Of a DNA stretch of 64,000 nucleotides, positions 1,758-63,497 are shown in pieces (the first letter of the stretch is position 1; every line of letters starts with the position of its first letter). The stretch is from NCBI GenBank assembly GCA_009829735.1, contig CM020620.1, positions 19,194,020-19,258,019 on the forward strand, written 5' to 3'. A program made the position numbers and the translations under genes. The DNA comes from Pyropia yezoensis. Taxonomy: Eukaryota; Rhodophyta; Bangiophyceae; Bangiales; Bangiaceae. Below the pieces are notes generated by a model. It saw only the letters and a program-made list of their open reading frames with translations. It had not been told where the DNA came from and ran no database searches.

Positions 1758-2328
1758 TGTAGCATCCCTGGCCCCGACTTGGCGCCGACCCGGGACTGCA
1801 ACCAGAGGGCACCAGGTGCCAGTACACGCCCGCCGTGTGGTGATGGTTGGCGGTCGTGGCCCGTGCCCGGCACTGGGATGCGGTGGACTACGCTATCCAC
1901 GCGCGAGAGAGGGATTTCTGATGTGTTTTTGCATACTTGTGAGGGACTTGATTTGAGAGAAATTGAGTGTGAGATTAGTGAGTGGGAATAGAATTAGTAG
2001 TGATAGTGGCCCCCGACCTGACGAGGTTAGACTCGGGTCGGGGCCACTCGGGGTTATGGGGGGGCTACCTGGCCAACGTGCCGAGGCTCCCCCAGATGCA
2101 CGTTAAGAGGGACAGCGAGGCGCCCTTGGCCCGCGCCCTCAGGAAAAAGACAACTGCGCGTTTGCTTTCCTCTTCCCCGTGTGCACTACCGTGCGTATCT
2201 GTTTGCTCTGCGAGCAGGCACGTGAGGCAACAGGCATACCATTCTCGTAGTTCCCCTTTCTGTGTTACCTGTCCCTTTCCCCCGAGGGATATTGACACGT
2301 GTCTGAGAGGATCGAGTTTTATACCACA
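1758..2328 (+). repeat. 5' LTR of element A
   Basis: Begins TGTAGCATCC and ends TATACCACA (TG...CA). It is repeated with near identity at 10842-11412, at a constant offset of 9084 bases. Confidence 0.95.
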
Positions 2329-2332
2329 TATT

Positions 2333-4428: not shown

Positions 4429-7400
4429 GTGTTCAAGGGGACATTGCTCGTCCTGCGTAAAGAAAACCTCAAGATTAATGCTCGTATGCGTGTGGGGGAT
4501 AGCCTCCCCCAAGCTGTTACGCCGGTGGTTGACACGGGAGCCGGACCAAGCGTCATCACTGAGAACCTGTTACCTCCGGGCTGGCGTCGACATGCCTGGA
4601 GAGCGCCTACCCGGACCCATATCGTCGACGCTTCGGGTCAAACCCTACGACCGCTTGGCCGTCTTCCTGTCGCCATCTATGTCAACAATGAACCAATGCT
4701 TTTTCCCTTTCTGGTAGTCAAGACCCTATCAGTCCCCCTCATCCTAGGCTGGGACTTCCAGAAGCAGCATGTCAAGAGCATCCTACCCGGAGAAGGGAAG
4801 GTCCAGTTCAACCATGGGTTTGTGTCACCGGTATTGGAGCATCTGGACGCCAAGGTTCGTGTAGCCAAGGGCAAGAGGGAACGCATCCCACCCTCTACCT
4901 TGACTCTCTTCAAACCGGTGCTCCTACCCCCTCGCTCGGAGACCAAGGTTCAAGTAACGACCCGGATTGCAGGTCAATGCCTGATCTACGGACGTAAGGA
5001 ATTTCTGGCGAAACACCGGTTATACTTGGCCCACGGACATCACAAGAAGGTAGAAAGGCACACCCCGTTCTCGGTGCTAATCGTCAACGTGAGCCGGAAG
5101 CCAATAACCCTCGCCAAGGGCACCCGAGTTGGTACAGCGGAGCCTTACCGGGGGTCCGCCCGTGCTATGAGCAAGGAAGACCTCCTGAACCTGCAGCAAG
5201 AACTGGCATCCAACTTGACGGCCTTAGACGTCCCTCCGAAACAAGAGCAGGCTGGCAGCGCTACTCCGAAACCCGAACAAGCACCACCCGGGATGCCGAA
5301 GGTCAAGCAAGAAAATGTCCCTCCCGACTTGAAGGAGGCACTGGAGAAGCTTCTCCAGGAATATCGGCACCTGTGGTCGGGAGAGCTGGGCAAGATGGAC
5401 GCCACTCTACACCGGATTCAACTCAAGCCGGAAGCTAAGCCAGTGCACATGCAACCATATCGGGCCGGACCTCATCGCCGGGATGAGATTGAGAAGCAGG
5501 TTAACAAGATGCTCAAGATGGATGTTATCGAGCCGTCTGATGGCGAGTGGGCTTTCCCGGTGGTAGTCGTCCCGAAAACCGGCGGTCACTTCCGTTTCTG
5601 CGTTGACTACCGGCGCCTGAACGAGATGACAGTCAAGGACGTATACCCGATACCCCGGATGGATGATTGCCTCGACTTTCTTGGTGATGCCACCCTCTTC
5701 TCGACGCTGGATTGTAATGCCGGTTACTGGCAGATCCCTCTGGCTGACGAGGACAAGGACAAGACCACCTTCACGTGCCACCTGGGACTATTCCGGTGCA
5801 AGCGTCTTCCTTTTGGTCTCACCAATGCTCCGGCAACCTTCCAAAGAGCCATCGACATCATCCTGTCCGGGCTAAGGTGGAGAACATGTTTGGTCTACCT
5901 GGACGACATTATCGTTTTCTCCAAGACCCCAGCGGAACACCTGGAGCACCTTCGGGAGGTCCTGGCCCTCCTGTCCAAGGCTGGAGTTACGCTCAAGGCC
6001 GAGAAGTGCCACCTGTTTGAGACTGAGGTGGAGTATCTGGGGCACGTGCTGAGTCCGGGGGAGCTCCGAGTCAATGAGAAGAACATCAAGGCCCTCCGGC
6101 ATGCACGGCAACCCAAAACCCAGACGGAACTCAAGAGCTTCCTGGGTATGTGCAACGTCTATCGCCGGTTCGTACGGGACTATGCTCTGATTGCCCGGCC
6201 ACTGACCAAGCTGACCAGCAAGAAGCTGCCCGCACAACTCCCGGTGTTCGACGAGAAGCAGACGGCGGCCTTCGAAGAGCTCAAGAAGCGCCTGACCACT
6301 ACTCCAGTACTGGCGTTACCCAAGCGGGAGGGCCAGTTTGTTCTGGAGACGGATGCCTGTGGCGTCCAGGTGGGGTGCTCACTACTCCAGCAGCAACCTG
6401 ATGGGCACTTTCTCCCGATAGGCTACTACAGTCGCGTCTTGACTCCAGCTGAGAAGAACTATTCCACGACCGAGCGCGAGTGCTTGGCAGTCGTCTGGGC
6501 TTGCTTCCTGTTACGGCCATATCTTGAAGGACAAGAGTTCCTCATCCGGACGGACCACGCCAGCCTAAGGTGGCTGCTATGTATGGACAGCAGTCAAGGA
6601 AGGGTAGCCCGGTGGCGCCTACGCCTTTCGGAGTTCAAGTACAAGGTGTGCACCAGAGCAGGGAGGGAGCACCACTGCGCCGACACCATGTCCCGGCTGG
6701 AGACTCCTGCAGCCGATACCGGTCCTATCCCGGAGGAAATACCTTGCTTCATCCTCCCGAATGTCGGACGTGGCTGGCACGCTCCCCTGTATGAGACACC
6801 TGAGGCTCATCAACCGGTGACCATTCACCGGATGCTGGAGGCACAACTGACGGATCCTCAATGCTTGGAGCTTCGCCACCAAATGGACCTGAACCGGAAC
6901 AGTCGTTTCTCCGAGTCTACGGACGGACTCCTAGTACGGGTGTCACCCTTCGATGGGGCCACTCAAGTCTACGTACCCCGGGGCCTACGAGCTGACATCC
7001 TACGCCTGGAGCACTCGTCTCCCCAGGCCGGACATCCTGGTATCAATCGGATGTATGCTTCCATGAGACGACACTATTACTGGGAAACCATGGCCAGTGA
7101 CGTCCATAAGTACCTGGAGGCTTGCGTTTCGTGTGCAAGGAACCGGTTGTCCCAGAGGAAGAAGACTTCTAAGCTACGCCTATTCCCTGCGGCGGAGCCC
7201 TTTGCAAGCTTGAGCATGGACATCCTGGGGCCCCTACCTGAAACATCCAGTGGCAACCTATACCTGCTCATCATATGTGACCGGTTCTCCAAGTTCACTC
7301 GAGCAATCCCGCTGAGGACCATCACGGCTCTGGATGTTACGTCAGCCTTCTGCGAGTACTGGATAGCTGCCTACGGTCCTCCAGACTCCGTCTTGACCGA

Positions 7401-8388
7401 CAACGGTCCCCAGTTTGCATCCCTGTTCTTCCAAGGAGTCTGTGACCTGATGGGCATCAAGAACTTGTACACTACGACGTATCACCCTCATACGAACGGC
7501 CAGGTGGAACGATTCAACCGGACCCTAGTAGACATGCTACGGCACTACGTGGAGGAGCACCAAGAAGACTGGGACGAGCTCCTGGCTGTCCTCACTCTAG
7601 CCTACAACTCCCGAGTTCACCGGACAACGGGGGTCGCTCCACTCGACTTTGTCACCCCAAGGCGGCTGACCAACTTCTCCCTGGAAAGAATACCAGACGG
7701 TCCCCAGCCTGCACTGAAGTCAGGTCCCAAGGCAAAGGATGAGTTCCTGGAACAACTGAAGCTCCTGCTCCCAAGAGTCAAGGAGTCAATCTCGAAGACC
7801 CAGGAGCGCTACAAGCGGGACTATGACAAGGGCGTTCGGGAAAAGAACAAGGAACTGGGTGGTGGCGACTGGGTTTTTGTGGACAACCATAGCAAGACCC
7901 GGGGGAAGCTGGACTCGAAGACGGATGGACCTTATGAGATCCTGAATACGGACGGTTGGACGTTTCTTCTAGACGTGGATGGCTCCCCGTACCGCGTGAG
8001 CAGCGACCATGTCACCCGAGCTCCACCGCCAAGCCAACAGGACTTGACCCGGCGCAAGCGGGCCGCAGTACCCTGGCTATCCCAAGAAGAAGGTCGGGAA
8101 TATGTCTACGTCAAGTTTGTGGACCATGCCTGGAGAGACGGACGCTTGTACCTGCGAGTACGCTGGTTCGGTTTTAACCCGGCAGATGATACATGGGAAC
8201 CCTCAAACCGGCTACCCATCGCGGATGTCTGTGCCTACACGCGACGGAACGGGATAGAGGGCACTCCAGTGGCCAGAGCCGGCAAGATTCTGGAGTCGGA
8301 CTCGGAGGAGGACCAAGAGGATGGGGCCAACCAAGACCCTCGGGACGAGCCGAGTTCATCCGCAACGGATGCGGAACAAGAGGATTGA
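4429..8388 (+). CDS. pol: Pol polyprotein of element A (PR-RT-RH-IN-chromodomain)
   Basis: Enzymatic polyprotein of a chromovirus. Visible in order: aspartic protease DTGA (about residue 37); reverse transcriptase with the FCVDYRRLNE block and active site YLDD (about 487); RNase H (TDACGVQVG, TDHASLRWLL); integrase HHCC zinc finger (HSSPQAGHPG...CVSCARNR), then the D-D-E core (SMDILGP, LTDNGPQFAS, NGQVERFNRT); and a C-terminal chromodomain (LYLRVRWFGFNPADDTWEP, about 1240-1270). The frame opens at GTG 4429 and its first ATG is 4486, so the true N-terminus is unsure. A 128-bp gap and a -1 frame separate it from gag, so frameshifting over the gag stop is unlikely unless the frame opens further upstream. 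No stops within 1319 residues. Confidence 0.93.
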   Translation: MFKGTLLVLRKENLKINARMRVGDSLPQAVTPVVDTGAGPSVITENLLPPGWRRHAWRAPTRTHIVDASGQTLRPLGRLPVAIYVNNEPMLFPFLVVKTLSVPLILGWDFQKQHVKSILPGEGKVQFNHGFVSPVLEHLDAKVRVAKGKRERIPPSTLTLFKPVLLPPRSETKVQVTTRIAGQCLIYGRKEFLAKHRLYLAHGHHKKVERHTPFSVLIVNVSRKPITLAKGTRVGTAEPYRGSARAMSKEDLLNLQQELASNLTALDVPPKQEQAGSATPKPEQAPPGMPKVKQENVPPDLKEALEKLLQEYRHLWSGELGKMDATLHRIQLKPEAKPVHMQPYRAGPHRRDEIEKQVNKMLKMDVIEPSDGEWAFPVVVVPKTGGHFRFCVDYRRLNEMTVKDVYPIPRMDDCLDFLGDATLFSTLDCNAGYWQIPLADEDKDKTTFTCHLGLFRCKRLPFGLTNAPATFQRAIDIILSGLRWRTCLVYLDDIIVFSKTPAEHLEHLREVLALLSKAGVTLKAEKCHLFETEVEYLGHVLSPGELRVNEKNIKALRHARQPKTQTELKSFLGMCNVYRRFVRDYALIARPLTKLTSKKLPAQLPVFDEKQTAAFEELKKRLTTTPVLALPKREGQFVLETDACGVQVGCSLLQQQPDGHFLPIGYYSRVLTPAEKNYSTTERECLAVVWACFLLRPYLEGQEFLIRTDHASLRWLLCMDSSQGRVARWRLRLSEFKYKVCTRAGREHHCADTMSRLETPAADTGPIPEEIPCFILPNVGRGWHAPLYETPEAHQPVTIHRMLEAQLTDPQCLELRHQMDLNRNSRFSESTDGLLVRVSPFDGATQVYVPRGLRADILRLEHSSPQAGHPGINRMYASMRRHYYWETMASDVHKYLEACVSCARNRLSQRKKTSKLRLFPAAEPFASLSMDILGPLPETSSGNLYLLIICDRFSKFTRAIPLRTITALDVTSAFCEYWIAAYGPPDSVLTDNGPQFASLFFQGVCDLMGIKNLYTTTYHPHTNGQVERFNRTLVDMLRHYVEEHQEDWDELLAVLTLAYNSRVHRTTGVAPLDFVTPRRLTNFSLERIPDGPQPALKSGPKAKDEFLEQLKLLLPRVKESISKTQERYKRDYDKGVREKNKELGGGDWVFVDNHSKTRGKLDSKTDGPYEILNTDGWTFLLDVDGSPYRVSSDHVTRAPPPSQQDLTRRKRAAVPWLSQEEGREYVYVKFVDHAWRDGRLYLRVRWFGFNPADDTWEPSNRLPIADVCAYTRRNGIEGTPVARAGKILESDSEEDQEDGANQDPRDEPSSSATDAEQED

Positions 8389-8533: not shown

Positions 8534-10651
8534 CTACTCCCGGCGCGGACGCTGAGCCGCGGGAGTGTCCTCCAGCGCTGCCTCCGCGGCACGACGGGAA
8601 CCGGAGGAAGACGGGATGACGTAGTGCGGTGGACGCGGTGCATCCCGGTATGACGCCATCGGAGTAGTACCGGTAGTTGCCGGGGGCTCCCGCTCATCCA
8701 GATATGCCCGTCGGCGCCCCTGGAAGCCAGTGAAGGTTTCGGACCACTGCTGGGCCAAGCCATGCCGCGTCAAGGTCGCCAGAAGTTCGCCAACCACCGG
8801 GCTGTTCGACATCTGGCCGCTGTCCGCGCAAGCAAACACCCGGTCAACCACGTTGTTCAAGACGCTGGCGTAAGTGCCCAGCACCAGGGAAGACCCGACG
8901 CCCTCAACCTGCACCGGAAGACGACCCAGCTGGTCTTCAATCATACCGACGTCGTACTGGTCGCATGTCGGACCACCTTGGATCAGGTACCAGTCAGGCA
9001 CCCGGAAGCGGGTAAGGCGCAGAGTCGGCGCCGGAATCTCGAACCGCCCCGAGGATGACACCACCGGACGGTCCACAACAGCCCCCGAAACCGGAGTACC
9101 TAACTCCAGCGGAGGCACAGCGCCGCCGGCGTTGGAAGAAGGCGTCCGAGGCGGAGCGGCCGGAGTGGTAGGCGACCGCACGGTCACCCCCAGACTCGCC
9201 GCAGACAGGCGCGGTGCCGGAGGAGCTTGAAGTACCGGCACAGCCGGAACAAGGCGTGAACGCGCCGGCGACGGTTCAGGCGAGGCCACCGGGGCGACAG
9301 GTGCAACAGGAGGAAGTGGAGCCGCCGCAGACGCCTGACCGACCGCCGCGGCCCATCCCGACTCCTGCACCGGCGGCCCAACTGGCAGAAGATCAAGGGC
9401 GGCCGGGGCAGGAAAGCTACCTAGCTGCGGCCACGCCGGAAGCGGCGTCGCCAGCTGCACCTTGGCCGGAGAAGACTGGTAGACCACCTGCGCCCAACCG
9501 AAGCCATCCCGACGCGGGCGGTTCTGGTCGGCAATCGCGTTCAAGAAGTTCCGGTCATGCACCGGCACTAGACGCCGGAAGTCAATCATCGCCTGGAAGA
9601 GCCCCTTATACTCCTCGTCCTGGCTGCACAGGAAGTCGACGGTCAACTTGTCGACAATCCAGACCATCAGGAGGTCGGGGAGAAACCAAAGCCGGTTGGA
9701 CACCAGGACCTCGTGAAGCCAGTGGTTGGCCGCCAAGACTGTCATCTCGGACGTGTACATCATGTACGGGATCGAGTGGAAGAAGCCCTTGATCGACGCC
9801 TGGGTCAAGGCGTCCAAGAAGTACCAGGTGAAGGGGATGCTAGAAGGAGCAAACCCGACCGGGATCTCGACTTCCTGCTGCTGCGGGATGACCTTGGGGT
9901 AGTACGCCGCCCGGTTAGCCTTGTCCAGCTTCCAGAACTCTTGGTGGTTGCAGCTCACGAGGAAGTCACGCTGACGTCCGCGTCGCTCACCCTGCTCCCG
10001 TGCCGGCGACAACTTGGAGTACTTCCGGGTCAGGAAGGGCGGCTCCAGAGCGACCATACTCGGACGGGGATCGCAGTTCAGGCTCCCCGACCCCTTGAGC
10101 GCCTCGTCCCAGACCTTGAGTGCCCGGTGGACGTACCCTTCCTCCTCCGGCCACCGGAGAACGGACGCGGACACGCGACGCTCGGTCAAAGGTAGATCCA
10201 GCACCAGCGCGAAGGGGAGATCCTCCAGACGAGCAACCCAAGAGGAACCCGAGAAGCTCTGGGAGCGGTCTTGTGCCAGGCGCATCTGGTCCGCCGTGTG
10301 AAGACGAGCCTTATCCATCTTGGTCAAGACCCCGCGCTGGAGTTCCTTGCGCCAGAGGTCCAAGCAATCCTGCTGGCACTGGGCCGCGCCGGCGTTGCCG
10401 ACCACCGTGGAGTAACGCCGGGCCGCCAGGGGGTCCTGCCCAAGAAGCATCTCCGGGAGACCCACCGGGGGGGTCTCGACCAGGTGCAACGCAGAAGCCG
10501 GGGGAACCCGATCCGTCTCCGCCGTAGCAGCCGGCGCCGGCACCGACACCCGAGGAACCGGAGGCAGGAAAAGGGCGCGACTACCCGAGTTCTCCTCCGC
10601 ATTGCTCGCCGCCGGAACCACGGGCCCAGCTTGAATCTCGGAACTGGACAT
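8534..10651 (-). CDS. Antisense ORF protein of element A (new family, unknown function)
   Basis: An intact ~705-residue ORF on the opposite strand, tail-to-tail with pol and ending 146 bp from its stop. I chose the ATG at 10651 (MSSSEIQAGP), about 190 bp inside the 3' LTR; the frame stays open back into the LTR. Acidic/Ala-Pro-rich N-terminus, a predicted globular middle (YYPKVIPQQQEVEIPVGF, then NRLWFLPDLL), a Pro/Ala-rich linker (near 9150-9400) and a basic C-terminus (AAQRPRRE). No known domain recognised. It is not a shadow, since nothing is coded on the plus strand here. The ORFs in D1, B and E at the same place share its motifs. It would need an antisense promoter in or near the 3' LTR. 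Existence as a family is likely; function is unknown. Confidence 0.75.
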   Translation of the reverse strand: MSSSEIQAGPVVPAASNAEENSGSRALFLPPVPRVSVPAPAATAETDRVPPASALHLVETPPVGLPEMLLGQDPLAARRYSTVVGNAGAAQCQQDCLDLWRKELQRGVLTKMDKARLHTADQMRLAQDRSQSFSGSSWVARLEDLPFALVLDLPLTERRVSASVLRWPEEEGYVHRALKVWDEALKGSGSLNCDPRPSMVALEPPFLTRKYSKLSPAREQGERRGRQRDFLVSCNHQEFWKLDKANRAAYYPKVIPQQQEVEIPVGFAPSSIPFTWYFLDALTQASIKGFFHSIPYMMYTSEMTVLAANHWLHEVLVSNRLWFLPDLLMVWIVDKLTVDFLCSQDEEYKGLFQAMIDFRRLVPVHDRNFLNAIADQNRPRRDGFGWAQVVYQSSPAKVQLATPLPAWPQLGSFPAPAALDLLPVGPPVQESGWAAAVGQASAAAPLPPVAPVAPVASPEPSPARSRLVPAVPVLQAPPAPRLSAASLGVTVRSPTTPAAPPRTPSSNAGGAVPPLELGTPVSGAVVDRPVVSSSGRFEIPAPTLRLTRFRVPDWYLIQGGPTCDQYDVGMIEDQLGRLPVQVEGVGSSLVLGTYASVLNNVVDRVFACADSGQMSNSPVVGELLATLTRHGLAQQWSETFTGFQGRRRAYLDEREPPATTGTTPMASYRDAPRPPHYVIPSSSGSRRAAEAALEDTPAAQRPRRE

Positions 10652-10841: not shown

Positions 10842-11412
10842 TGTAGCATCCCTGGCCCCGACTTGGCGCCGACTCGGGACTGCAACCAGAGGGCACCAGG
10901 TGCCAGTACACGCCCGCCGTGTGGTGATGGTTGGCGGTCGTGGCCCGTGCCCGGCACTGGGATGCGGTGGACTACGCTATCCACGCGCGAGAGAGGGATT
11001 TCTGATGTGTTTTTGCATACTTGTGAGGGACTTGATTTGAGAGAAATTGAGTGTGAGATTAGTGAGTGGGAATAGAATTAGTAGTGATAGTGGCCCCCGA
11101 CCTGACGAGGTTAGACTCGGGTCGGGGCCACTCGGGGTTATGGGGGGGCTACCTGGCCAACGTGCCGAGGCTCCCCCAGATGCACGTTAAGAGGGACAGC
11201 GAGGCGCCCTTGGCCCGCGCCCTCAGGAAAAAGACAACTGCGCGTTTGCTTTCCTCTTCCCCGTGTGCACTACCGTGCGTATCTGTTTGCTCTGCGAGCA
11301 GGCACGTGAGGCAACAGGCATACCATTCTCGTAGTTCCCCTTTCTGTGTTACCTGTCCCTTTCCCCCGAGGGATATTGACACGTGTCTGAGAGGATCGAG
11401 TTTTATACCACA
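10842..11412 (+). repeat. 3' LTR of element A
   Basis: Near-identical copy of 1758-2328. It ends ACCACA at 11412 and is followed by the target duplication GAACG. Confidence 0.95.
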
Positions 11413-12273: not shown

Positions 12274-15200
12274 ATGAAGCGGGCTGGTTCACACTCACCG
12301 ACCCATGGGAGAGTGAAGGTCCTGACTCGACCTCGAGGGGTGAGGCCCAGAGACAAGGCCCCTCCTCAGAAGTACGACCCGAGTCGGATTGTGTCAGTCC
12401 TGGTAGGGAGTAACTATCAGGTCGCAGCTCGACTCTGGCTGCAGGATGGATATGAGTTTGCCTCTCGTGTCATAGTCGACACCGGCTCTGCTGCCTCTCT
12501 CATCAGGCAAGACTTATTGCCAGAGGAGACGGACGTGAGCCCCGCCGACTCACCCGAGTGGCGTATGTTTGATGTCAATGGGGGACTCCTCCCCATTGTT
12601 GGGTCTATTGCATTGACTGTTTGCATTGGGTTCTACCAGACGCAGGTGAACTTTGGAGTAGTCTCCAATATGTCAGTCCCCGTACTCCTGGGAACTGACT
12701 ATCTGGACCTCCATGTCCCGGCCGTCTGTGGACCGGAAGGGATAATCCGAATGCGGAATGGAGAGACTGTCCCCATATTGCGGAAGGGGAGGACTGTTTC
12801 CCCGACGACTCATCAACCAAGGGAAAACACTCCCAAGGGTGGAGGCTCGACGACCCATGTACGAGTATGTAAGGGTACGGTAGTCCCGCCCCGATCAAGG
12901 ACCTTTGTGCGAGTATGCACACGGTTTCGAGGGAATGGACTCGTCTCCCCCGTGGATCGAGTCTACTACACTCGCCAAGTGCAAGTTGCATGGGGACCCA
13001 TGACCTGTGGGGATGACCAAAGTTGGTGGGTAGAGGTCCTCAACAAGTCAGAGGAGCCTCGACGACTCCCCGGAGGCATGAAGATCGCGTCGATCTCTAC
13101 CTTTGAAGGGAATGTCGTTGCTGTGACTCAACAGCAATGGAAGGATATTGGAACGGCAGACTCTGCCGACCAATCGAGTTTATCGACGGCCAAGTCGCCG
13201 ACGATACATCGGGAGAACATCCCGGAGTGCTTACATGGACGGCTGGATGAGTTAATCCAGAAGCATCACAAGTTGTGGAATGGTGACCTTGGACTCATCA
13301 AGGCCACCGAACACAGAATCGTGTTGAAGCCAGGGGCTAGGCCAGTTCGCCTGAGTCCCTACCGTATGAGACCAGACTCACGGGAACTCACCCGAGAGCA
13401 GGTCCAACGGATGCAAGACATGGGTGTCATTGAGCCTTGCTCAAGTGAGTGGGCCAGCCCCATAGTCTTGGTGCTCAAGTCAGACGGCACGACGCGGTTC
13501 TGCATCGACTATCGTAAGCTAAACGAGCGGACGGTAAGGGATAGTTACCCCTTACTCCGTATGGACGATTGCCTCGACTCACTCGGTGAGGCACAGTACT
13601 TTTCCACGTTGGACTGCAACGCGGGGTACTGGCAGATACCCATCCGCAAGGAGGACAGACACTTGACCACCTTCACGTGCCACTGTGGAGTTTATCAGTG
13701 TACACGGCTCCCTTCCGGGCTTTGCAATGCACCTGCGACTTTCCAGCGTGCTATTGACTTGATACTTGCCGGAGTCAAGTGGCAGATCGCCCTGGTGTAT
13801 CTGGACGATATCATTGTGTTCTCCGGGACTGCCGAAGAACACCTGTCCCACTTGGACAGAGTGTTTACCCGGTTGGGTGAAGCAGGAGTAACACTCAAAC
13901 CTGCGAAGTGTCACCTCTTTAGTAATGAGGTGGAGTACCTCGGCCATATAGTCCGGCCAGGTCGCATTTTGGACCATGAAAAGAACCTCATGGCCATCCG
14001 TCGGGCGAAGTTCCCCCAGACGCAGACGCAACTCAGGAGCTTCCTGGGTATGTGTAACGTATACAGACGCTTTGTGGCGAACTATGCCAAAGTGTCTGCA
14101 CCGTTGAACCACTTGGTAAGTTCCAAGATGCCCAAGCGCTTGGATGCTCCCAAACCCCCGGAGCAAGAAGCGTTTGATAGGTTGCGACCCACCGGTGTTA
14201 GCGATTCCCAGGCCCGGGGCTCACTACATCGTTGATGTGGACGCAAGTTACGACCAACTCGGTTGTTGCTTACTCCAACAACAGCCTTCGGGGGAGTATT
14301 TACCCGTTGGCTATTCCAGTAAGGGACTCTCACCCGCCCAGAAGAACTATTCTGTGACGGAGGTGGAGGGTCTTGGCGTAGTATGGGCAGTCTCCATGCT
14401 ACGGCCACACATCGAAGGAAGGAAGTTCCTCATTCGATGTGACCACAAGGCTTTGAAGTGGATACTCACCACTACAGCCTGTACGAATAACCGACTCAAT
14501 CGATGGCGACTCTGCCTCGCTGAGTTCGATTATGACGTTGAGTATCGGCCAGGCCCGAAGCATGCGGTTGCGGACGCGTTGTCTCGCATACCGACGGATG
14601 GGAAAGACACTTCCCCCATCCCTGAGGAGCTCCCTCTTGTGGCAGTGACAACTCGCTCCGGAACTGTCCTCGACCCGAGGATGCCTGGCATGGCCAAGTT
14701 ATTACCCGTGTCTTTGAATGAGTTTATCCAGGCACAGGAGACCGACAAACTTTGTCGACGACTCAGGAAGGAGCTCGACCAAGCTCAACCGACTCGGTTC
14801 TTCCTGAACGACAACGGCATACTCTGCCGTATGGGGTATACCCAGGGGGATAAACAAGTCGTCGTCCCCAAGGTGTTACGTAAGGGCATCCTCCAACGGG
14901 AGCACTCCTCACCGTTGGGTGGACACCCAGGGTCTACCAGGATGTATCAGACCCTACGCAAGAAGTACTATTGGCCATCACTCGTGGCTGATGTGTACGG
15001 GTATGTAGCCGCATGCGCGACTTGCGCAAAGAATAGACTCATGGAGTCCCCGCAGACTTCTTCCATGAGACTCTTTCCAGCAACAGAGCCGTTTGCAGCG
15101 ATAGTAGTGGACTTACTCGGTCCACTACCACGAACACCAGAGGGATATGAGTACCTTCTGGTGATGTGTGATCGCTTTACTAAGCTCACACGGGTATCCC

Positions 15201-16246
15201 CACTCAAGGATATCACAGCCGTGGACGTTCTGAGTGAGTTACTCGACGTCTAGGTTGCCAGTTATGGCATCCCCGACTCTATCCTTTCGGATAACGGACC
15301 ACAGTTTGCGTCCGTCCTGTATCAGGGAGTCATGAAGATGTTGGGGGTGCAGACGAACTTCGCAACCCCTTACCACCCCCAGACAAATGGGCAGGTGGAA
15401 CGATTCAACAGGACTCTAGTGCGCCAGTTGCGTCACTATGTCCATGACCATGTAGTCACATGGGCTCGTTATGCGTCACTACTCGTGACAGCATACTCCC
15501 AGGTACACAGTAGTACGGGAGAGGCACCGTTTGCCTTCGTCTGCCCCCGACGACTTCCGTCAGTAGCTGTGGAGCGTCTCACCCAGACTGAGGGTGAGAC
15601 TTCGACTCAAACACCGAGTCAGGCGAAAGCCTCTCTACTCCAGAAACTGGAGGAGATGATACCCCTTGTCCGGGCTACTATGGAGAAGGCCCAAGCTCGT
15701 TACAAGAGGTACTTCGATGTCCGAGTCAGACATCGTCGCGATCCGCTCCGAGTTGGAGATTGGATTTATGTCAACTCCCACGACAATAAGGGAGGGAAAT
15801 TGATTTTCAAAACTCCGGGACCATATCAGATCCTGAAAACGGATGGGCGCCGGTTAACCATCGAGAGTGATGATGGTATCCAAACGATAAATGGGAATCA
15901 CGCGACTCGCGCTCCCGAGCCCCCAGAGGGAGATCCCGCTTTGGAAAGGGCCTTGCAAGCATGGAAAGTCCCATCCTTGCCGACTTCCTCCGATAAACCG
16001 TTGGAGGCGGTGTTCGACAAGTTTGTCGGACACGGATACGATGAGTCAGGGCGACTCATGCTCCGAGTCAGGTGGTTCGGGTATGGACCAACTTCCGACA
16101 CATGGGAGTTTATAGAGGACCTACCAGTAGAGAAGGTCCGTAGATACTGCCAGGCTGCGGGCATATCTACACGCCGACGTAGCACTCGTACGTCGGGGAA
16201 TGAAGCCCATGCTCCAAGCCAGAGCAGAGCGGCAAGCCAACCATGA
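12274..16246 (+). pseudogene. pol: pol of element B, broken (frameshift and nonsense)
   Basis: Starts at ATG 12274. Protease DTGSAAS near 12480, RT (FCIDYRKLNERTV, YLDD near 13800), RNase H (DVDASYDQLGC, RCDHKALKW), integrase HHCC (HSSPLGGHPG...CATCAKNR), D-D-E core (VVDLLGP, LSDNGPQFAS, NGQVERFNRT) and chromodomain (LMLRVRWFGYGPTSDTWEF, near 16060-16120). Damage: the frame shifts near 14180, just before the RNase H block, and at 15251 a TAG stands where D2 has TGG (Trp), inside the integrase core between the first two Asp blocks. The protein is most like D2 pol. Dead copy. Confidence 0.92.
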
Positions 16247-16463: not shown

Positions 16464-18107
16464 TCAGGGAGGCCCCGGAGTGGAAGCACTGGGAGGGCCC
16501 CGCCGACTCGCGGACCCATCCCCGTCGAAAGAAAGATGTCCGGAGGTACTCCCTCCGTGACGCGGAAGCTGCTGCTGAGTCGACAGCAGCCGTTGGACAA
16601 ACTCGTGTCCAACCGCGAGGCGAGTGACCTCAGCTGCCAATGACTGTCGCGCCGTGGCTGAGTCGCCCGACGCGAGAAGGTGACTGACACGCCGGGTGAC
16701 CCAAGCCAGCGTGTCAAGGGAGGCCACGAGTGAGGCCTCCACCGTGGCGTCATACATGATGGCTCCCAAGTTGGGAATCATCTCGCCGACGCCGCGCGCG
16801 ATCGGCATGGGTACCGGAGTTCGGACCCGTAGCGAACCCAACGCCACGTCGGGGAAGGGCTCGAGGAACTGGAAGGGTGGAGCATGAGTCGGCTCCACAC
16901 CCCCCGAGGTCGGAGTCGCGACCCGCGGGGAAGACGTCGGCACAGCTCGCCCGCGGCTTCGAGGGGCTCCTCGACGAGCACCACGACGAGTCGTCGCCGA
17001 TGACGTCGCCCATCCAGAGCCAAGGGGCGACGTAGAGGGAGTAACCCCCTCCGCGTAGGGAAGGGAAGGGTCCCCCAACCCCTCACGCAGGAGTACCTGC
17101 CCCTGCACCAGAGTGTGGGTGACATGGACGAACTCCCAGGATGGTTCACTTTCCAACCCCGGCTCCGACCGCTTGTTGCGGCGGAGGAAGGGGTCCAACT
17201 GCCCCCAATCGAGTCGATTGTGTAGGGTGACCATGCCTTGGAGGAGGAACGGAGCCAGGTCCCCCGCACCCGAGGCTAACCAGTGGACGCCAACGGTTTG
17301 CATACCCCCCACCAGAGTCGGTGGGAGGTGCCACAGGTAACCCCGATGGACTACATCGGAGTACCAGCCCCGGTACGTGGGTGAACTCCACCCGCGACCC
17401 GTGGATGAGGTAACCCGAGGAGCTCCGGAGCCGGAACTCCTCTCGCACCACGCCGTGTTGGGCGTGGGCGTCCTCTCCTCCCAGGTAGGGACGAGGGAGG
17501 GCACACCACTCGGTAGACACCACCGCACAGGTGTCGTCAATCTCCACATCGCCTGACCCCATGGCGAGGGAAGTTGACAACGCCTGGACTTCAGGCGCGT
17601 CCGCCAGACAGATTAGTGCTGGTAGGTCGCATAACACCCCATCAGGTAGAGTCACCTGGTTGGGGTAGGGTAGCGACGAGTCCGGCGGTACCATACGTCG
17701 GTCCGCCGAGGCTGAGGGATGACCATGTAGGTCTCCTTGAGTATGCAGTCGGGAAGCTCCCCGACTGACTTGGGAGACGCCCAGGCTCGGGGCTCCGGAC
17801 GAGGACGAGGCTGCGGCGGGAGTAGCAACCGCGGCGCCGGAAGGCGGGGGATAGGAGTCTCATCCCCCTCCGCCACCGGGTTGGAAGGCCCAGCCCCCGG
17901 TGGGACCACAGTGGAAGGGGTAGTTGAGGGTGTCGGGGCGGGGACGGCCGAGGCGGCCGCCTCCGACCCTCGCCCGGGACGAGTCGTCTCCATGGCCGAC
18001 CCCCGGCTGAGAGACTCCTCAGTCCCGAGGGCCTCCCCTCCCGCCCGTCGCTTGTCCGACAAAGACGTCGGAGACGGGGACAGAGGCCGACTCGGCTCAC
18101 CCGCCAT
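16464..18107 (-). pseudogene. Antisense ORF of element B, decayed
   Basis: Same position and orientation as the antisense ORFs of A, D1 and E. The likely start is ATG 18107 (MAGEPSRPLS). The reading frame changes near 17690 and again near 17390, and roughly 80 residues present in D1 are missing just before RGYLWHLPPTL (near 17330). Blocks shared with D1: VTLPDGVLCDLPALI against VGFPAGFRTDQFAFL; RGYLWHLP against RGMLWHLP; VLLREGLGDPSLPYAEGV against VVLREGLGIGDYPYAPGV. Homology across frames shows a once-intact gene. Function unknown. Confidence 0.7.
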
Positions 18108-39415: not shown

Positions 39416-41359
39416 CTAGGCACGCATGCTAGACTCTCCCACTCCACGGCCCTCGCCCTCACGTGGAGGCGAGCGGCGAGACCCACGCCGATAACGGTCT
39501 CCACTCGTTGGAAGGGGCGGCGGCTCCAAGTCGGAACCGTCGCGCCCCTCACGGTCGCGCAAGTGGCGCCGACCGTGGCTACTCTTCTGCCTGGTCTTGC
39601 GCGCAAGTTTGCGACGCAGACGCTGGACAGACTCCGTCTCCGATGGGGTAGAGGACTCCGAGACGGAGTAAGACAACTCGTCTTCCGACACGGAGGGAGA
39701 GCGCCGCGAGTGACGGCGACGACGGCGAGGAGGCGAGTATGCCCGGCTCGCACGACGCTTGCCACGCCCAAGTGGGGTTGGCTGGGGCATAATAGCCCCA
39801 ATGCGAGCCAACTCGGCCGTCATAAACTCCGCCACCGACTCGCAACTCGCGGTCGCCACTGCAGTACGAACGCGCTCCTCAAGTTGAGGAGTCTCGGAAC
39901 TTTGGAGGGTTGCGGTCGACGCGGCCAACCAGGAAATGGTGCGCACCAACGTGGTGATCATCATCTCTGAGGTTAGAGGCGTGGGCGGTAACACCAACTT
40001 GGGGTATACCGTCAGGAGGGTGGCCCCCAAGTTGGGAGACACCGGTGTGGATGACTCCACGGCCACGCTGATCGGGATGTTCCCGTGAGGCTGGAAAGGA
40101 ACAGGAGGAAGCGGAGGGGCACGCCGAGGTGGCGGTACCCGGGTGTAACTGCGACCCCGACTTGGGGCCCCCGCAGTAGGTTGAGTCATATGGTCATCAT
40201 ATGAGGGCACAGCCATAACTATGGGCTTGTCCGGGGGTGGCGCAGTGTGACGATCCACCCCCGGGGCATACGGGTAGTCCCCGATGCCCAACCCCTCTCG
40301 TAGGACCACACGGCCGTCGTGAAGTTCACGAGCGACCCATACGAACTGGCGAAGTGCGCCATCGTCCTTGGGCCCCCGAGTGGGGCGGCGCAACTTGTGC
40401 TCAATGCTCTCCCACTCGATAAACTTGTGGAGGCGGAGCATCTCCTCAAGTAGAGTGAGTTGTCCTGACGAGCACCCCTCAGCAACTAGCTGAGGGGTGA
40501 GCTGTTCCAAACCCTGGATGAGCCGGAGGGGGAGATGCCAGAGCATCCCCCGCCGCTGAACACATGACACCCAGGTCGACATGACCTCGAGGAGCCACTG
40601 GGTGGCCAACATGGCCCACACCAGATGATCAGGGCCAGCCGTCAACATGACGGAGCCAAAGTGGTCAAGCAACCGTGGCAACAATGCCGGGAACCCGTAG
40701 GGGACCTCAACTTGAGGCCACCACTCGGGCTTCTTCGGGTAGTATTGCTCCTTACTGGCAGCAGACTGCTGAGGAAACTCAAGTTGAGCCGAGGTCACCA
40801 AGTAGGGACCTCGCCGGAAGTCCTTCTCCATCCGCACATCAAAGTGATGAGTGTGCGGATCGGCCTCGTGAAGGTACGGGGGGCGAGTTGCCACCGCGTC
40901 CCAAGTGAAGGTCGGCAAGTCGCCGGGACCCGGGATAGTTCCCCCGCGGTCCACCATGGCCTTGGCCCGCTGCACGTCCTCGACCTCCTCGTCGTCCAGG
41001 AAGGCAAACTGGTCCGTCCTGAAGCCGGCAGGGAACCCGACCCTACGGGGATACTTCTCCCGTAGGCGGTCCCATACCCGACCCATCGCTGCGCCGAGTC
41101 GGCCACAGCGAAGAACAGTCAACCCCTCCTCATACAGAGGCCAAGCGGGGTAAAACCACCGCCCCAAGGCCTCACGCGGGACAACTTGTCCCGCCTCCGG
41201 GGGAGATCCTGCCGTCAACCCAAAGCCGGGTGACGCGGGAGTCCCACCCCCCGGAGCGATCGCGGAGCCCCCGCCGGAAGTCCCGGCAGGCGCTGCACCG
41301 TAGGTGGTGTCCTCCATACGCTCATCGAGAGAGTCCGTCTCCACTCCCGGAGTCGCCAT
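39416..41359 (-). CDS. Antisense ORF protein of element D1
   Basis: Intact 647-residue ORF, tail-to-tail with pol (112 bp apart). Start ATG 41359 (MATPGVETDS), 341 bp inside the LTR. Middle region: GRWFYPAWPLYEEGL, PAGFRTDQFAFLDDEEVEDV, YYPKKPEWWPQVEVPYGF, RGMLWHLPLRLIQGLEQL, FVWVARELHDGRVVLREGLG. A helical segment (SEMMITTLVRTISWLAAS) is followed by an Arg/Ser-rich, strongly basic C-terminus (RRRRRHSRRSPSVSEDE...), which could bind RNA or target the nucleus. The motifs recur in A, B and E. The ORF is intact even though pol of the same copy is frameshifted. No known domain; function unknown. Confidence 0.75.
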   Translation of the reverse strand: MATPGVETDSLDERMEDTTYGAAPAGTSGGGSAIAPGGGTPASPGFGLTAGSPPEAGQVVPREALGRWFYPAWPLYEEGLTVLRCGRLGAAMGRVWDRLREKYPRRVGFPAGFRTDQFAFLDDEEVEDVQRAKAMVDRGGTIPGPGDLPTFTWDAVATRPPYLHEADPHTHHFDVRMEKDFRRGPYLVTSAQLEFPQQSAASKEQYYPKKPEWWPQVEVPYGFPALLPRLLDHFGSVMLTAGPDHLVWAMLATQWLLEVMSTWVSCVQRRGMLWHLPLRLIQGLEQLTPQLVAEGCSSGQLTLLEEMLRLHKFIEWESIEHKLRRPTRGPKDDGALRQFVWVARELHDGRVVLREGLGIGDYPYAPGVDRHTAPPPDKPIVMAVPSYDDHMTQPTAGAPSRGRSYTRVPPPRRAPPLPPVPFQPHGNIPISVAVESSTPVSPNLGATLLTVYPKLVLPPTPLTSEMMITTLVRTISWLAASTATLQSSETPQLEERVRTAVATASCESVAEFMTAELARIGAIMPQPTPLGRGKRRASRAYSPPRRRRRHSRRSPSVSEDELSYSVSESSTPSETESVQRLRRKLARKTRQKSSHGRRHLRDREGRDGSDLEPPPLPTSGDRYRRGSRRSPPREGEGRGVGESSMRA

Positions 41360-41700: not shown

Positions 41701-42168
41701 TGTGGCAGTATTGACCCCCAGGTAGGGGGCAACACGTGCCATGCAAGGGGCGGCAGGCCACTAGCCTGATCCGTTCCTCCCCCTGCATTTGGGTCCATAT
41801 TCCCTAAGTTCGGGATAGTTAGCTTAGTAGTAAATCCAACTTGGATTTGAGGGTTTTCTGCATTTATCGTCTTGAATTTTCGTGTGGCCCGGTGGGCAGG
41901 TGCTGGGGTGGGAGATTCTGAGTGGCGAGATTCTGAGTGGACCCTGGGGGGATAAGGGGAGGGACAGCGGGGCTTGGCCCTGCGTCCCCGTCCCGACCAA
42001 GAAACTGTTGGACCACATACCATCTTCTTGTTTGTCCGTGGGGGGATTGCCCCACAACAGGGATAGAGTGTGTGCGACTTGCACTTCTTCCGGTTCCCCC
42101 GACACGGGAGGCAGCCCTCGCACACCGCCCCAACTTGGGTACTGTGTGTGCGAGTGGTTTTTGCCACA
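41701..42168 (+). repeat. 3' LTR of element D1
   Basis: TGTGGCAGTATTG...TTTTTGCCACA, about 468 bp, nearly identical to both LTRs of D2 (55822-56290 and 63029-63497). Confidence 0.93.
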
Positions 42169-42466: not shown

Positions 42467-44836
42467 TCAGTGGGTAGACCCACTGCCCGAGGGAGGCCAC
42501 TCACGCGTAAGCGCGTACACCTCCATGCTCCACCGGTCGGCAATCTCACGACGGTCAATCACCCGAGTTACCTCGGTGCATAACTGGACGAGGGTGCTGC
42601 GGCCAGCCTCCACGTCCGCTAGAGCGGACTGGAGACGGTCAAGCACGCAACCGAAGCAACGCGCTGACCCAACCAGCGCAGCACCTGGGGGGATATCCCC
42701 CCAGCTAACAGAGAGACCCTCCCGCATCGCGCGAGCAATAAGGGCGTCAACGCCCTCATACCATAGACGGGGAACCCCGTCAGGCATGACAGGGGCAGAA
42801 AGTGACACTGGCGCGACCAGAGGAGCCACAGGAGCCGACACGGCTACCACCGGAGCCGGTGGCGCCTGATACGAGGCCCGGTAGGACCCTACTGAAGTGG
42901 CTCCACCGTAAACCCGGCGGGGCTCCGCCCGACGACGGGACACCTCACGCTCCCCACCCGCAGAGCCCCACTCTCGCGGACGACGGCCAACCGCCACCGG
43001 TATCGGGTTACCGAACCACGGGGCAAGGATCTGAAGAGGGTCATGGATAACCATGGGAATACCCAGGTCAGGAACAGCCTCGGTGGACGCCCACCCCCGG
43101 CAATTGGGCTCACCCGGCTGAGTACGCCGGATACGCAACGAGTGACGAGGCAAGGGGGAAGCCCCAGCCTGCGGGTCCCGGTACGGGGGAAGGGCCAACA
43201 CCCCAGCCCAGTTCACGGCATCGTGAACAGCCAGCAGGGCCTCGAACTCCCGGGCCAACCCGGTCTTGGCAGCTATCATGTCCACGCCCAGCTGCCCGAT
43301 GTGCCGACGGACACCCGTCGGAAGATGAAACAGGCGCCCCTGCCGGCGGACGGACAGCAAGAAGGAGGAAGCCTGCCCGAGGGTAACCTCAAGAGTGAAG
43401 GTACCCTGCATCGGGTGGACCGGCCGGGAGGCCAACACACTCCCGAAGTATCGGAGACAGGAGCGGGTGTCAAACCGGAAAGCAGGGGCGGGTTCCCACC
43501 CCTCCTGCCATAGAGGCGGACGCACGGGAGTGTATACTGGCGCACGACCGTTGCCGGTCTGCAACGCACACGTTATATCGGTGCGGAACGCATCCGCCAT
43601 GACACCATGGTTACGTCGCCAGCTCGACGCCGACTTCAACCCCACCATAGGCGGGTAGGGAGCCGTCAACGACAGATACGGGGATACCCCCGGGTAATAA
43701 TCAAAGTCGGGATACCGACCGGTATCCCCCACCGTCTCCCCAAACGCCACCGGCTCCGCCGCCGCCGCAATCCCCCGAGCACTAGCCGGGTAGTCAACCT
43801 CCCGCGGCAACGCGGGGGCAATCAAGTCGCATACCCCGAAGGCGGGGTCGAGGTAGACCTTACCCCGTCCCACCCGGGTGCGCCAGAGCTGCGCATGCCG
43901 GTCGTCCGGCTGACTCAGGATCCAATGGTGTTCCACCCGCACCGCGTTCGGCTGGTTGACCAGCCGCACCAACTCCCGCTCCCAACTCGGGTCCACCTTG
44001 ACGCGCCGGGAGGACTCTCCACGGTAACGCGGCTGGTGGAAGTCCACCCGCATCCGCCCAGCGGAGTCCATCGACTCCTGCACAGACAGGCCTCGAACCC
44101 GAGCCACCAAGTCGGACATCGACATGGCGGGTTGACCCGCCGCCACGGCGACGCCGCCACCCAACGGGGCAACCCGGGCAGGACCAGGAAGAATCGGGGG
44201 CGCCGGGGGATGCCCCACCAGCACATGGCCCGTTGACGGAGGGGCACGGGGCCGAGGAGGAAGAAGAAGGGCGGGCGCCCGCCCGGAGTATCTCCCGGAG
44301 TCCATTGCCATCGGGGTAGATGACTCTTGACCATCACGCGTCCGCGGCACCGCGGGCAGAGCATCGCCGCCACCCGGGCCCGACGAGGGTACCGCGGGGG
44401 AAGCACGGGTAGACCCGCTACCCGCCGCAGCGGACACACCAACCGGGCGGGCACCCGCGCCGTCTTGACCAGCCGTACCGGCCGGGGTGCCGCCACTACC
44501 ATCCGCCACGCCGGCGACACCGTCTTGAGGTAGAGCCGCGCCGGCACCGGCGACAGAAGCCATCCGGGCCGCCGGAGGAGTAGCGGTAGAGGCAGCCGCT
44601 ACACGCGGTTGTCCGCCACCCGACGGAGCCGTCGTACCGCTACACACGGACGACAACCTGCCCGGCGCGCCTTCCGGGGCCACACGAACGGTCACCCGGT
44701 CGTCCTCGTCCTCCGACGAGCTCGCTAAGAAGCACTCGGCGGCGGTGGCAGAGACGGGAACGTCGTCCACCATCACCTCCTCCTCCTCCTCAAGCAGGAG
44801 GTCATCCTCGCCCCCGGGTACCTGGGGGTCCGACAT
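42467..44836 (-). CDS. Antisense ORF protein of element E
   Basis: Intact ~789-residue ORF from ATG 44836 (MSDPQVPGGE) to 42467. N-terminus acidic (DDLLLEEEEEVMVDD), then Ala/Gly/Pro-rich, then an ordered region: LVRLVNQPNAVRVEHHW, FDYYPGVSPYLSL, FRFDTRSCLRYFGSVLASR, QGRLFHLPTGVRRHIGQLGVD, and C-terminal helices (GCVLDRLQSALADVEAGRSTL). The QGRLFHLP block, followed by a ~50-residue helical stretch, aligns with RGMLWHLP of D1, RGYLWHLP of B and NRLWFLP of A. Place and strand relative to polypurine tract and LTR are the same. Unknown function; the most diverged member. Confidence 0.7.
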   Translation of the reverse strand: MSDPQVPGGEDDLLLEEEEEVMVDDVPVSATAAECFLASSSEDEDDRVTVRVAPEGAPGRLSSVCSGTTAPSGGGQPRVAAASTATPPAARMASVAGAGAALPQDGVAGVADGSGGTPAGTAGQDGAGARPVGVSAAAGSGSTRASPAVPSSGPGGGDALPAVPRTRDGQESSTPMAMDSGRYSGRAPALLLPPRPRAPPSTGHVLVGHPPAPPILPGPARVAPLGGGVAVAAGQPAMSMSDLVARVRGLSVQESMDSAGRMRVDFHQPRYRGESSRRVKVDPSWERELVRLVNQPNAVRVEHHWILSQPDDRHAQLWRTRVGRGKVYLDPAFGVCDLIAPALPREVDYPASARGIAAAAEPVAFGETVGDTGRYPDFDYYPGVSPYLSLTAPYPPMVGLKSASSWRRNHGVMADAFRTDITCALQTGNGRAPVYTPVRPPLWQEGWEPAPAFRFDTRSCLRYFGSVLASRPVHPMQGTFTLEVTLGQASSFLLSVRRQGRLFHLPTGVRRHIGQLGVDMIAAKTGLAREFEALLAVHDAVNWAGVLALPPYRDPQAGASPLPRHSLRIRRTQPGEPNCRGWASTEAVPDLGIPMVIHDPLQILAPWFGNPIPVAVGRRPREWGSAGGEREVSRRRAEPRRVYGGATSVGSYRASYQAPPAPVVAVSAPVAPLVAPVSLSAPVMPDGVPRLWYEGVDALIARAMREGLSVSWGDIPPGAALVGSARCFGCVLDRLQSALADVEAGRSTLVQLCTEVTRVIDRREIADRWSMEVYALTREWPPSGSGSTH

Positions 44837-45426
44837 GGTGAAACCGGGGTAGCAGGGGCGCCCCGTGCAGAAAAGCCGAGGCCGGCTCAACCCGGTACAA
44901 GGAACGCTCGCGCGGACGAGCCAGGGAAGCGCGGGCACCCGCGCTTATAACCACACAGCTCAGCACGAGCGATACGGCAGCGCGGGACGACCCGCGCCAG
45001 CCGAGCTACGAGGGCGCTCCACCCAGGCACCTGGACCGGAGCCACGCCCCCCCCACACACGGGGTAAGCAAGGGGGGTCACCCCCAACCGCCCCCACTCA
45101 ACGCGGGCAGTCCCCGCCCCTACTCAATCGTCCACACGAGAGGGGGCCCCCTACCACCAGGCACCTGGTGGCGGATCCGCTTGCACCACCCCTCGGAAAG
45201 AGGGGTCGTGGACAGAAACCCGCATCGGGAATTTAACGGTCCGGAAAACGGATCGTGTGTGTACCACACAAAGGGGGGCACCCCCCTCAGACAACCTCGA
45301 AAAGGGGTGTCTGTCGCGACAGGGCGCAAAGCCCCACCCGACTGGTAAACGGTCACGCGACCCACTTACATTCGGTAACCCGAATGCAACTCGACCCGAG
45401 GACGGGCCGAATCTAAGGGGGGGATA
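44837..45426. other. Region between antisense ORF and LTR of element E
   Basis: 590 bp, no gene seen. A polypurine tract TAAGGGGGGGATA ends at 45426, next to the LTR. Confidence 0.5.
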
Positions 45427-45789
45427 TGTAGCAATATGGTTGGCCGTATTGTGACCGTAATATTAGGGGGGCTACTTCCAACCCTTAACTTTTAATTTGG
45501 GAGTCAGTACGGGTCACAGTATCTATAAGTTACGTATGACCAGAGGGACTTGCATCTTGGGGTGGAGGGTAGTTAGTAGTGTCTCCGAGGGTTTATAACG
45601 TGGGGGCCGGCGGCGAATCCACCGCCGGCCAAGGCAGAACAACAAACCCCTCCCATTTGGGCTCCCATCTTGGTCCCGTGGCTTGCGCTCCAAGGACAGC
45701 AACCTTGGCCTCCCGGTGACGTTGGTGCTGATCCCCCTTGGTGAGTCTTCCCTGAGAGTGGACGTGCGACGGATTCCTATTGTGCTACA
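45427..45789 (+). repeat. 3' LTR of element E
   Basis: 363 bp with 7-bp inverted ends TGTAGCA...TGCTACA. It matches 52652-53014 (LTR of F) with about ten differences. It ends 34 bases before the ATG of the piggyBac-like gene. Confidence 0.92.
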
Positions 45790-55821: not shown

Positions 55822-56290
55822 TGTGGCAGTATTGACCCCCAGGTAGGAGGGCAACACGTGCCATGCAAGGGGCGGCAGGCCACTAGCCTGATCCGTTCCT
55901 CCCCCTGCATTTGGGTCCATATTCCCTAAGTTTGGGATAGTTAGCTTAGTAGTAAATCCAACTTGGATTTGAGGGTTTTCTGCATTTATCGTCTTGAATT
56001 TTCGTGTGGCCCGGTGGGCAGGTGCTGGGGTGGGAGATTCTGAGTGGCGAGATTCTGAGTGGACCCTGGGGGGATAAGGGGAGGGACAGCGGGGCTTGGC
56101 CCTGCGTCCCCGTCCCGACCAAGAAACTGTTGGACCACACACCATCTTCTTGTTTGTCCGTGGGGGGTTTGCCCCACAACAGGGACAGAGTGTGTGCGAC
56201 TTGCACTTCTTCCGGTTCCCCCGACACGGGAGGCAGCCCTGGCACACCGCCCCAACTTGGGTACCGTGTGTGCTTGTGGTTTTTGCCACA
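55822..56290 (+). repeat. 5' LTR of element D2
   Basis: TGTGGCAGTATTG...TTTTTGCCACA with 7-bp inverted ends TGTGGCA/TGCCACA. Confidence 0.95.
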
Positions 56291-56292
56291 TT

Positions 56293-56310
56293 TGGTGGAG
56301 CAGCAGGGGA
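56293..56310 (+). promoter_or_regulatory. Primer-binding site of element D2
   Basis: TGGTGGAGCAGCAGGGGA, two bases after the LTR, identical to that of element A. Confidence 0.78.
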
Positions 56311-56409
56311 CAGAGGTAAACTTTACCTCCGGGTGCACCCGGGTGTAGGGGGCCCTCTGTCTCAGAGGAACGGTGGTCTTGGACCGTGTCATACGGATCG
56401 TCAGCGAAC

Positions 56410-62336: not shown

Positions 62337-62447
62337 GGGAAGGCCGAGCAACAGTGCCACGAGAGTGCTTCAAGTCGAAGTGGTACGCAGAGTGGCTTTT
62401 AACTACAGCCCTAACCCTCACACTCTCACAACAAAGGCAGCTGCCAA

Positions 62448-62690
62448 CTAGGCACGCATGCTAGACTCTCCCACTCCACGGCCCTCGCCCTCACGTGGAG
62501 GCGAGCGGCGAGACCCACGCCGATAACGGTTTCCACCCGTTGGAGGGGGCGGCGGCTCCAAGTCGGAACCGTCGCGCCCCTCACGGTCGCGCAAGTGGCG
62601 CCGACCGTGGCCACTCTTCTGCCTGGTCTTGCGCGCAAGTTTGCGACGCAGACGCTGGACAGACTCCGTCTCCACTCCCGGAGTCGCCAT
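62448..62690 (-). CDS. Miniature antisense ORF of element D2 (in-frame deletion)
   Basis: The D1 antisense ORF reduced from 648 to 81 codons by one 1701-bp in-frame deletion. The start (MATPGVET, ATG 62690) is joined to the basic C-terminus (ESVQRLRRKLARKTRQK...). The junction lies at the 9-bp repeat TCCGTCTCC, which in D1 occurs at both ends of the missing segment (near 39631 and 41334). The frame is kept, so an 80-residue Arg-rich peptide could still be made; whether it is made is unknown. Confidence 0.6.
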   Translation of the reverse strand: MATPGVETESVQRLRRKLARKTRQKSGHGRRHLRDREGRDGSDLEPPPPPTGGNRYRRGSRRSPPREGEGRGVGESSMRA

Positions 62691-63028
62691 GGCTCTCCCC
62701 AAGTTGGGGAGAGACGCTCTGGTTATCGCAGCACGAGACCCGCCTCGAGTTGAGGGGGACTCGGATCGTGGGTACACGGGTGGCCTCCCCAGCGTGGGGC
62801 GGCCCAGTGGAAGGTGAAGGGGAGGTGGTGGTGATGGTGAAGTGTGAACTGAGGAGAGCAAGCTGCCGAGTGGGCAAGCTTGAGGAGAGGGGCGGTCAAC
62901 GTGACCGCCTCCACATCCGTGTTACGTACTCGATGGGGGACAGCAAGTCGCGCCCCCAACGCCGAGACGTGCGTTTACGCACCCCCTCACAGGGCCGACC
63001 GGGTCGGTCGGAACTGAGGAGAGCGGAG

Positions 63029-63497
63029 TGTGGCAGTATTGACCCCCAGGTAGGGGGGCAACACGTGCCATGCAAGGGGCGGCAGGCCACTAGCTTGATC
63101 CGTTCCTCCCCCTGCATTTGGGTCCATATTCCCTAAGTTTGGGATAGTTAGCTTAGTAGTAAATCCAACTTGGATTTGAGGGTTTTCTGCATTTATCGTC
63201 TTGAATTTTCGTGTGGCCCGGTGGGCAGGTGCTGGGGTGGGAGATTCTGAGTGGCGAGATTCTGAGTGGACCCTGGGGGGATAAGGGGAGGGACAGCGGG
63301 GCTTGGCCCTGCGTCCCCGTCCCGACCAAGAAACTGTTGGACCACACACCATCTTCTTGTTTGTCCGTGGGGGGTTTGCCCCACAACAGGGACAGAGTGT
63401 GTGCGACTTGCACTTCTTCCGGTTCCCCCGACACGGGAGGCAGCCCTGGCACACCGCCCCAACTTGGGTACCGTGTGTGCTTGTGGTTTTTGCCACA
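63029..63497 (+). repeat. 3' LTR of element D2
   Basis: Near-identical to 55822-56290; preceded by a purine-rich tract (GAGGAGAGCGGAG) and followed by the target duplication CGTTC. Confidence 0.95.

Follow-up and report, generated by a model that had tools for sequence, protein, structure and literature searches.

Elements A, B, D1 and E of the Ty3/gypsy type in the red alga Pyropia yezoensis each carry a long minus-strand open reading frame (ORF) between pol and the 3' LTR, and these antisense ORFs are genuine protein-coding genes that form one homologous family. The ORFs, their homology, the constraint acting on them, their position and their copy number have all been demonstrated. The complete account that we favour, in which the family would be expressed from an antisense mRNA and supply a nuclear accessory regulator, has in our estimate a probability of about 0.5. 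The analysis centred on a window of 64,000 nucleotides (the whole stretch of DNA under study, C3:19194020-19258019), and copies were sought in the genome (107,475,971 bp, 11 contigs), nearly half of which consists of repeats, chiefly LTR retrotransposons, according to PMC7423979. The function of antisense ORFs in LTR retrotransposons has been left open; here one protein is shared across element families and in A is held as tightly as pol. The features of interest are the following.

1758..2328, plus strand: element A 5' LTR, 99.8% identical to 10842-11412, with a 5-bp target duplication
4429..8388, plus strand: element A pol, with protease, RT, RNase H, integrase and a weak chromodomain match
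8534..10651, minus strand: element A antisense gene, 705 aa, intact
10842..11412, plus strand: element A 3' LTR
12274..16246, plus strand: element B pol, three overlapping or adjacent ORFs, the first two domain-scanned
16464..18107, minus strand: element B antisense gene, frame broken in the window, 638 aa open in genomic copy L075
36850..39304, plus strand: element D1 pol, frame broken, 5' part lost at a 500-N gap
39416..41359, minus strand: element D1 antisense gene, 647 aa, intact
41701..42168, plus strand: element D1 3' LTR
42467..44836, minus strand: element E antisense gene, 789 aa, intact
45137..45426: stretch of E between the antisense ATG and the 3' LTR, more conserved than the ATG-proximal DNA, candidate promoter or RNA signal
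45427..45789, plus strand: element E 3' LTR
55822..63497: element D2
62658..62673: joint of the D2 deletion that took out most of the antisense gene

Element A is young, as its nearly identical LTRs and target duplication show, and appears to be nested within element B, whose LTRs, judged from this nesting, seem to be 1-494 and 19022-19515 (99.0% identical). Nesting looks three deep across 1-24272, with A in B and B beside or in a Copia element; the latter has an RVT_2 match and a pol frame that extends to 19102. The left side of D1 is truncated by the 500-N gap. Only the 3' end of E, without pol, lies in the window, and another E copy (C1:4610015-4618582) has the order pol, antisense ORF, polypurine tract, LTR. 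The Ty3/gypsy domain order was found in A, D2 and one E copy. Chromodomain matches of A, D1 and D2 all fall under Pfam's cut-off (in B the first two pol pieces were scanned), and in E no chromodomain match reached E 0.01. Two local peculiarities were also observed: a 95-bp tandem repeat of about three copies or slightly more at 18218-18557, between the start of the B antisense gene and the 3' LTR, and a region of 76-86% G+C at 26000-36349, with long C runs and many overlapping long chance frames, that ends at the 500-N gap.

The first-pass annotation had reported a long minus-strand ORF between pol and the 3' LTR in all four elements, and this holds, with lengths of 705, 638, 647 and 789 aa in A, B, D1 and E (that of B being read in L075); the coordinates given for A, D1 and E are correct. 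Its description of B as decayed was likewise accurate: the window copy has a broken frame, L075 encodes 638 aa that likewise begin with MAGEPSRP, and many other genomic matches to B have longer open frames. An antisense ORF of at least 250 codons between pol and the 3' LTR, a defining feature of the plant aORF-3R/eORF-3'R class, is thus present in A and D1 within the window, in E in a genomic copy, and in B in L075. Nothing is coded opposite A, D1 and E, where each opposing plus frame contains 7-25 stops.

Long frames could in principle arise by chance in GC-rich DNA. Chance frames of 400-700 aa are indeed common in the G+C-richest part of the window, and the longest open frame of the B antisense region (400 codons) was matched by 13 of 1000 dinucleotide shuffles, that is, within the range of chance. 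However, the longest open frames of A, D1 and E (768, 724 and 825 codons) were reached by none of 1000 shuffles each, and both the homology between element families and the frame-specific constraint documented below contradict chance origin, which is thereby refuted.

Homology among the four antisense proteins spans 150-290 residues. With B represented by L075, blastp gave E-values of 3e-45 for B-D1, 9e-54 for B and the family protein P0005, 3e-8 for A-B, 1e-7 for A-D1, 4e-8 for D1-E and 2e-4 for B-E. None of 200 partner shuffles scored as well for A-D1, D1-E, A-B, B-E or E-P0005, and 5 of 200 did for A-P0005. Compared directly, A and E gave no blastp match, 57 of 200 shuffles scored as well, and the hhalign probability was 3.9, so that the two are linked solely via the B/D1 group. 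Profiles of this group matched those of the A group (E 4e-7, 229 columns) and the E group (E 1e-7, 166 columns), both being single-comparison E-values. The similarity beyond composition that had been claimed for the four ORFs is therefore real, for A and E indirectly, and the sequence blocks quoted in its favour occur in the proteins. The core of the B/D1 group contains the motifs V-E-V, G-F-P-A, A-x-L-x-T-x-W, L-W-H-L, L-H and W. The RTs of B and D2 are 71.5% identical, those of the other five pairs 58.5-62.1%; B and D1 are also nearest among the antisense proteins, whose similarity ranks like that of the RTs. This parallel fits descent from one ancestral gene, the origin that we infer for all four.

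The first-pass annotation had further described several C-termini as basic and the N-termini as acidic or Pro-rich, and its statements on charge go too far. The C-terminal third is strongly basic in D1 (+15), whose tail is rich in RS, but hardly so in A (+1) and E (+2); the first third is acidic in D1 (-7) and E (-10), and only in these two. A 19-residue hydropathy scan revealed no strongly hydrophobic segment (maximum 1.54 in A, 1.23 in D1 and 1.82 in E).

If these genes encode functional proteins, their copies should have dN/dS well under 1, and such values were obtained: 0.18 in A, 0.41 in B and a median of 0.47 in E. For A we sampled 12 of the 63 listed copies, spread over the ranking and including two with a stop, against the window copy as reference; 11 copies had a dN/dS of 0.12-0.25, and L031, with nine differences, had 0.44. 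Pooling the copies gave a pN/pS of 0.24 for the coding frame, 0.31 for its wobble-sharing plus frame and 1.23-1.58 for the remaining four. In six A copies the antisense gene had a dN/dS of 0.176 versus 0.201 for the 3' part of pol, so that it is as conserved as another protein of the same element; in the same series of constraint estimates, pol of D1-D2 gave 0.046. For E, 10 of the 57 listed copies were picked; 55 pairs ranged from 0.28 to 0.71, and the frame control gave 0.47 for the coding frame, 0.52 for the frame with the same wobble positions and 1.12-1.43 for the others. All 10 copies were stop-free, a choice that favours intact genes. The contrast was modest in nine copies of B (0.41 in frame versus 0.56-2.66 in other frames), a set that excludes L062 (one-codon offset), the window copy and the diverged, stop-bearing L063-L066. 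For D1, 30 of 68 listed loci showed 35 silent versus 2 replacement variants, a contrast that we do not count as evidence, since protein score had determined the ranking of these loci.

A second set of E-type copies was chosen by pol: 7 of at least 150 RT matches, each of the seven lying on the plus strand and having the full 1423-codon pol frame, a choice that favours intact pol but was made independently of the antisense gene. Five of the seven have a whole, open antisense gene of 815 codons, 77% identical to E; in L077 a 500-N gap intervenes, with matches across the C-terminal part, and in L076 the antisense region is interrupted by a D element (bases 354-3167). Every one of the five copies whole in this region thus keeps the gene open. 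Against the window E, a comparison between subfamilies, their core (residues 271-600) gave a dN of 0.027-0.031, a dS of 0.104-0.160 and a ratio of 0.18-0.30, and their first 270 residues a dN of 0.24-0.25 and a dS of 0.41-0.48. Among the five, 2 of 10 pairs had a dN/dS of about 1 or above, on 23-29 differences. Constraint equals that on pol in A and is weaker in E overall. Selection has thus preserved the antisense gene, an indication that its protein is needed by the elements.

One natural copy counts against such a need, for at least one insertion. D2 has LTRs that are 99.6% identical and open gag and pol ORFs, yet most of its antisense gene is missing through a deletion whose ends match over about 15 bp; at least one insertion must have occurred with or just before the loss. 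The joint occurs just once: of 40 scored matches, a single one extends over all 151 query bases, the other 39 cover bases 1-84 only, and there is no sign among these 40 that the deleted form has spread.

The genome contains at least 68 matches to D1, 63 to A, 57 to E and, fragments included, 118 to B-like sequences, and the antisense ORF is therefore present in many copies per family (at least 57 to at least 118 matches), another trait of the aORF-3R/eORF-3'R class. Some E-type RT matches on C1 and C2 are paired on one strand at a spacing of about 5-9 kb, as though one had inserted near or into the other, and the DNA beyond the LTR of the E copy L074 (bases 955-1201) resembles A pol by eye. 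Capture of a gene from a host or virus, now in the service of the host, or carriage of a passenger unrelated to transposition would be compatible with the lack of detected homology to retroelement proteins, and plant antisense ORFs are likewise of unknown origin (PMC7264820). We nevertheless regard this as quite improbable: the matches listed for A, D1 and E represent the respective element type at full length, and constraint in A equals that on pol. With young, high-copy families and D2 as a natural deletion copy, whether antisense ORFs of LTR retrotransposons do anything can be put to the test in a seaweed under cultivation.

Searches of Pfam and PDB gave nothing convincing, in agreement with the first-pass view that no known domain is recognisable. 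A match to DUF6214 (E 0.079, in 1 of 17 family members searched against Pfam at E<=10) and two PDB sequence matches at E 1.7 and 1.9 were taken as chance, and another PDB search was empty. No Pfam match to a described antisense protein was obtained: the Transposase_28 profile (PF04195) had no match at E<=10 in the 17 members, in a search whose hmmscan filters discard weak matches, and it was absent from the matches of this genome as from those of 14 of 14 control genomes. With P0005 as query, no relative was found in viral and prokaryote contigs. Among the members, P0001 corresponds to D1, P0002 to A and P0007 to B at 97-99% identity; P0003, P0006 and P0004 share 83%, 70% and 57% identity with A; P0008, P0012 and P0015 (source lgn) share 50-59% and P0014 (jgi) 35% with B, which P0005 (jgi) matches at 36%. 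P0009, P0010, P0011 and P0013, four proteins of Pyropia vietnamensis (Bangiales) that are annotated as hypothetical, fall within the family at 44-53% identity to B, which suggests that some hypothetical proteins of that species are retrotransposon genes.

The distance between the antisense ATG and the 3' LTR is 190 bp in A, 341 bp in D1 and 590 bp in E. Between the window E and the five subfamily copies, identity is 68-90% over bases 1-200 upstream of the ATG and 92-98% over bases 301-400; in L074 it is 94-100% up to the LTR, with 98-100% in the last stretch, which this copy alone covers. The conserved stretch may represent a promoter, a signal for packaging or export, or the neighbourhood of the polypurine tract. 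In the account we favour, a promoter in or beside the 3' LTR would give rise to an antisense mRNA. The accessory protein that it encodes would be soluble and probably nuclear, its central domain conserved and its flanks changing fast, with an RS-rich basic tail in D1. The protein would act on the RNA or DNA of its own element, the simplest targets being transcription in the sense direction, export of RNA or the integration complex. Its transcription, nuclear localisation, binding and partner are what we infer in this account, which parallels proposals for Grande gene23, the Retand TRP28 proteins and retroviral antisense proteins.

Two other roles were weighed. The env gene of retroviruses sits between pol and the 3' LTR, and a structural or particle component encoded antisense, such as a minor capsid, attachment or env-like protein, would suit both this position and the large size of the proteins (638-789 aa). 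Envelope-like ORFs are recognised by a signal peptide, membrane segments and sense orientation; here the orientation is the opposite one, and hydropathy, with its maximum of 1.82, showed no signal-like or membrane-like stretch, so that a structural role appears unlikely. Alternatively, the antisense RNA could be what matters, the protein being secondary, with convergent transcripts forming double-stranded RNA that restrains the element. Sense genomic RNA must traverse the antisense gene on its way to the 3' LTR, and RNA roles are discussed in PMC7264820. This reading is very improbable, since the substitutions tend to leave the minus-frame amino acids unchanged, a conservation that an RNA role leaves unexplained; the confinement of constraint to that frame and its wobble-sharing partner in A and E counts for coding. 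A regulatory protein thus remains our preferred reading.

Antisense genes are known in some elements, as the first-pass annotation stated: PMC7264820 describes antisense ORFs between pol and the 3' LTR in plants and in Boty. We found no description of such ORFs in red algae, or of this protein, in the open-licence literature. What appears new is the protein family itself, its occurrence in a red alga and the homology across element families; the position of the ORF is of a known kind. Somewhat more tentatively than the account itself, we suggest an undescribed family, possibly with its own fold, confined to the antisense strand of red-algal Ty3/gypsy elements since before the four families split and as necessary as pol; LTR retrotransposons would then have gained an essential antisense accessory gene independently, and with it a novel means by which retrotransposition is controlled or targeted. 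The title of an article by Zhao in 2011 reportedly names brtn as the antisense gene of Boty.

The closest known counterparts are the plant aORF-3R/eORF-3'R ORFs (maize Grande gene23, rice RIRE2 and Silene Retand), which, according to PMC7264820 and PMC11963269, occupy the same antisense position, occur in most copies of a family and have no known function. The proteins of a large plant survey were heterogeneous and their function was questioned (PMC6317226). In the fungus Botrytis, brtn of Boty is an antisense additional gene of an LTR element (PMC7264820), which we compared by description; the comparison with Grande and RIRE2, too, is by description. The retroviral proteins HTLV-1 HBZ and HTLV-2 APH-2 are likewise products of antisense genes and nuclear in the cases described in PMC11963269; no homology with them is claimed, the element here being an algal retrotransposon. 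The same paper describes Retand as a non-chromovirus that often bears tandem arrays in the corresponding region, where B has its 95-bp repeat, and gives G21, P25, L34, P46, N47 and F55 as conserved in its Transposase_28. A, D1 and D2 differ in their weak chromodomain matches, and the red-algal proteins in having no Transposase_28 match under filters that drop weak ones; by eye and in an uncertain register, G-F-P is shared, but D1 has P at +2/+6 rather than +4 and no P-N pair at +25/+26 from that G. Finally, the host is a red alga, and one protein family spans elements whose RTs are 58.5-71.5% identical.
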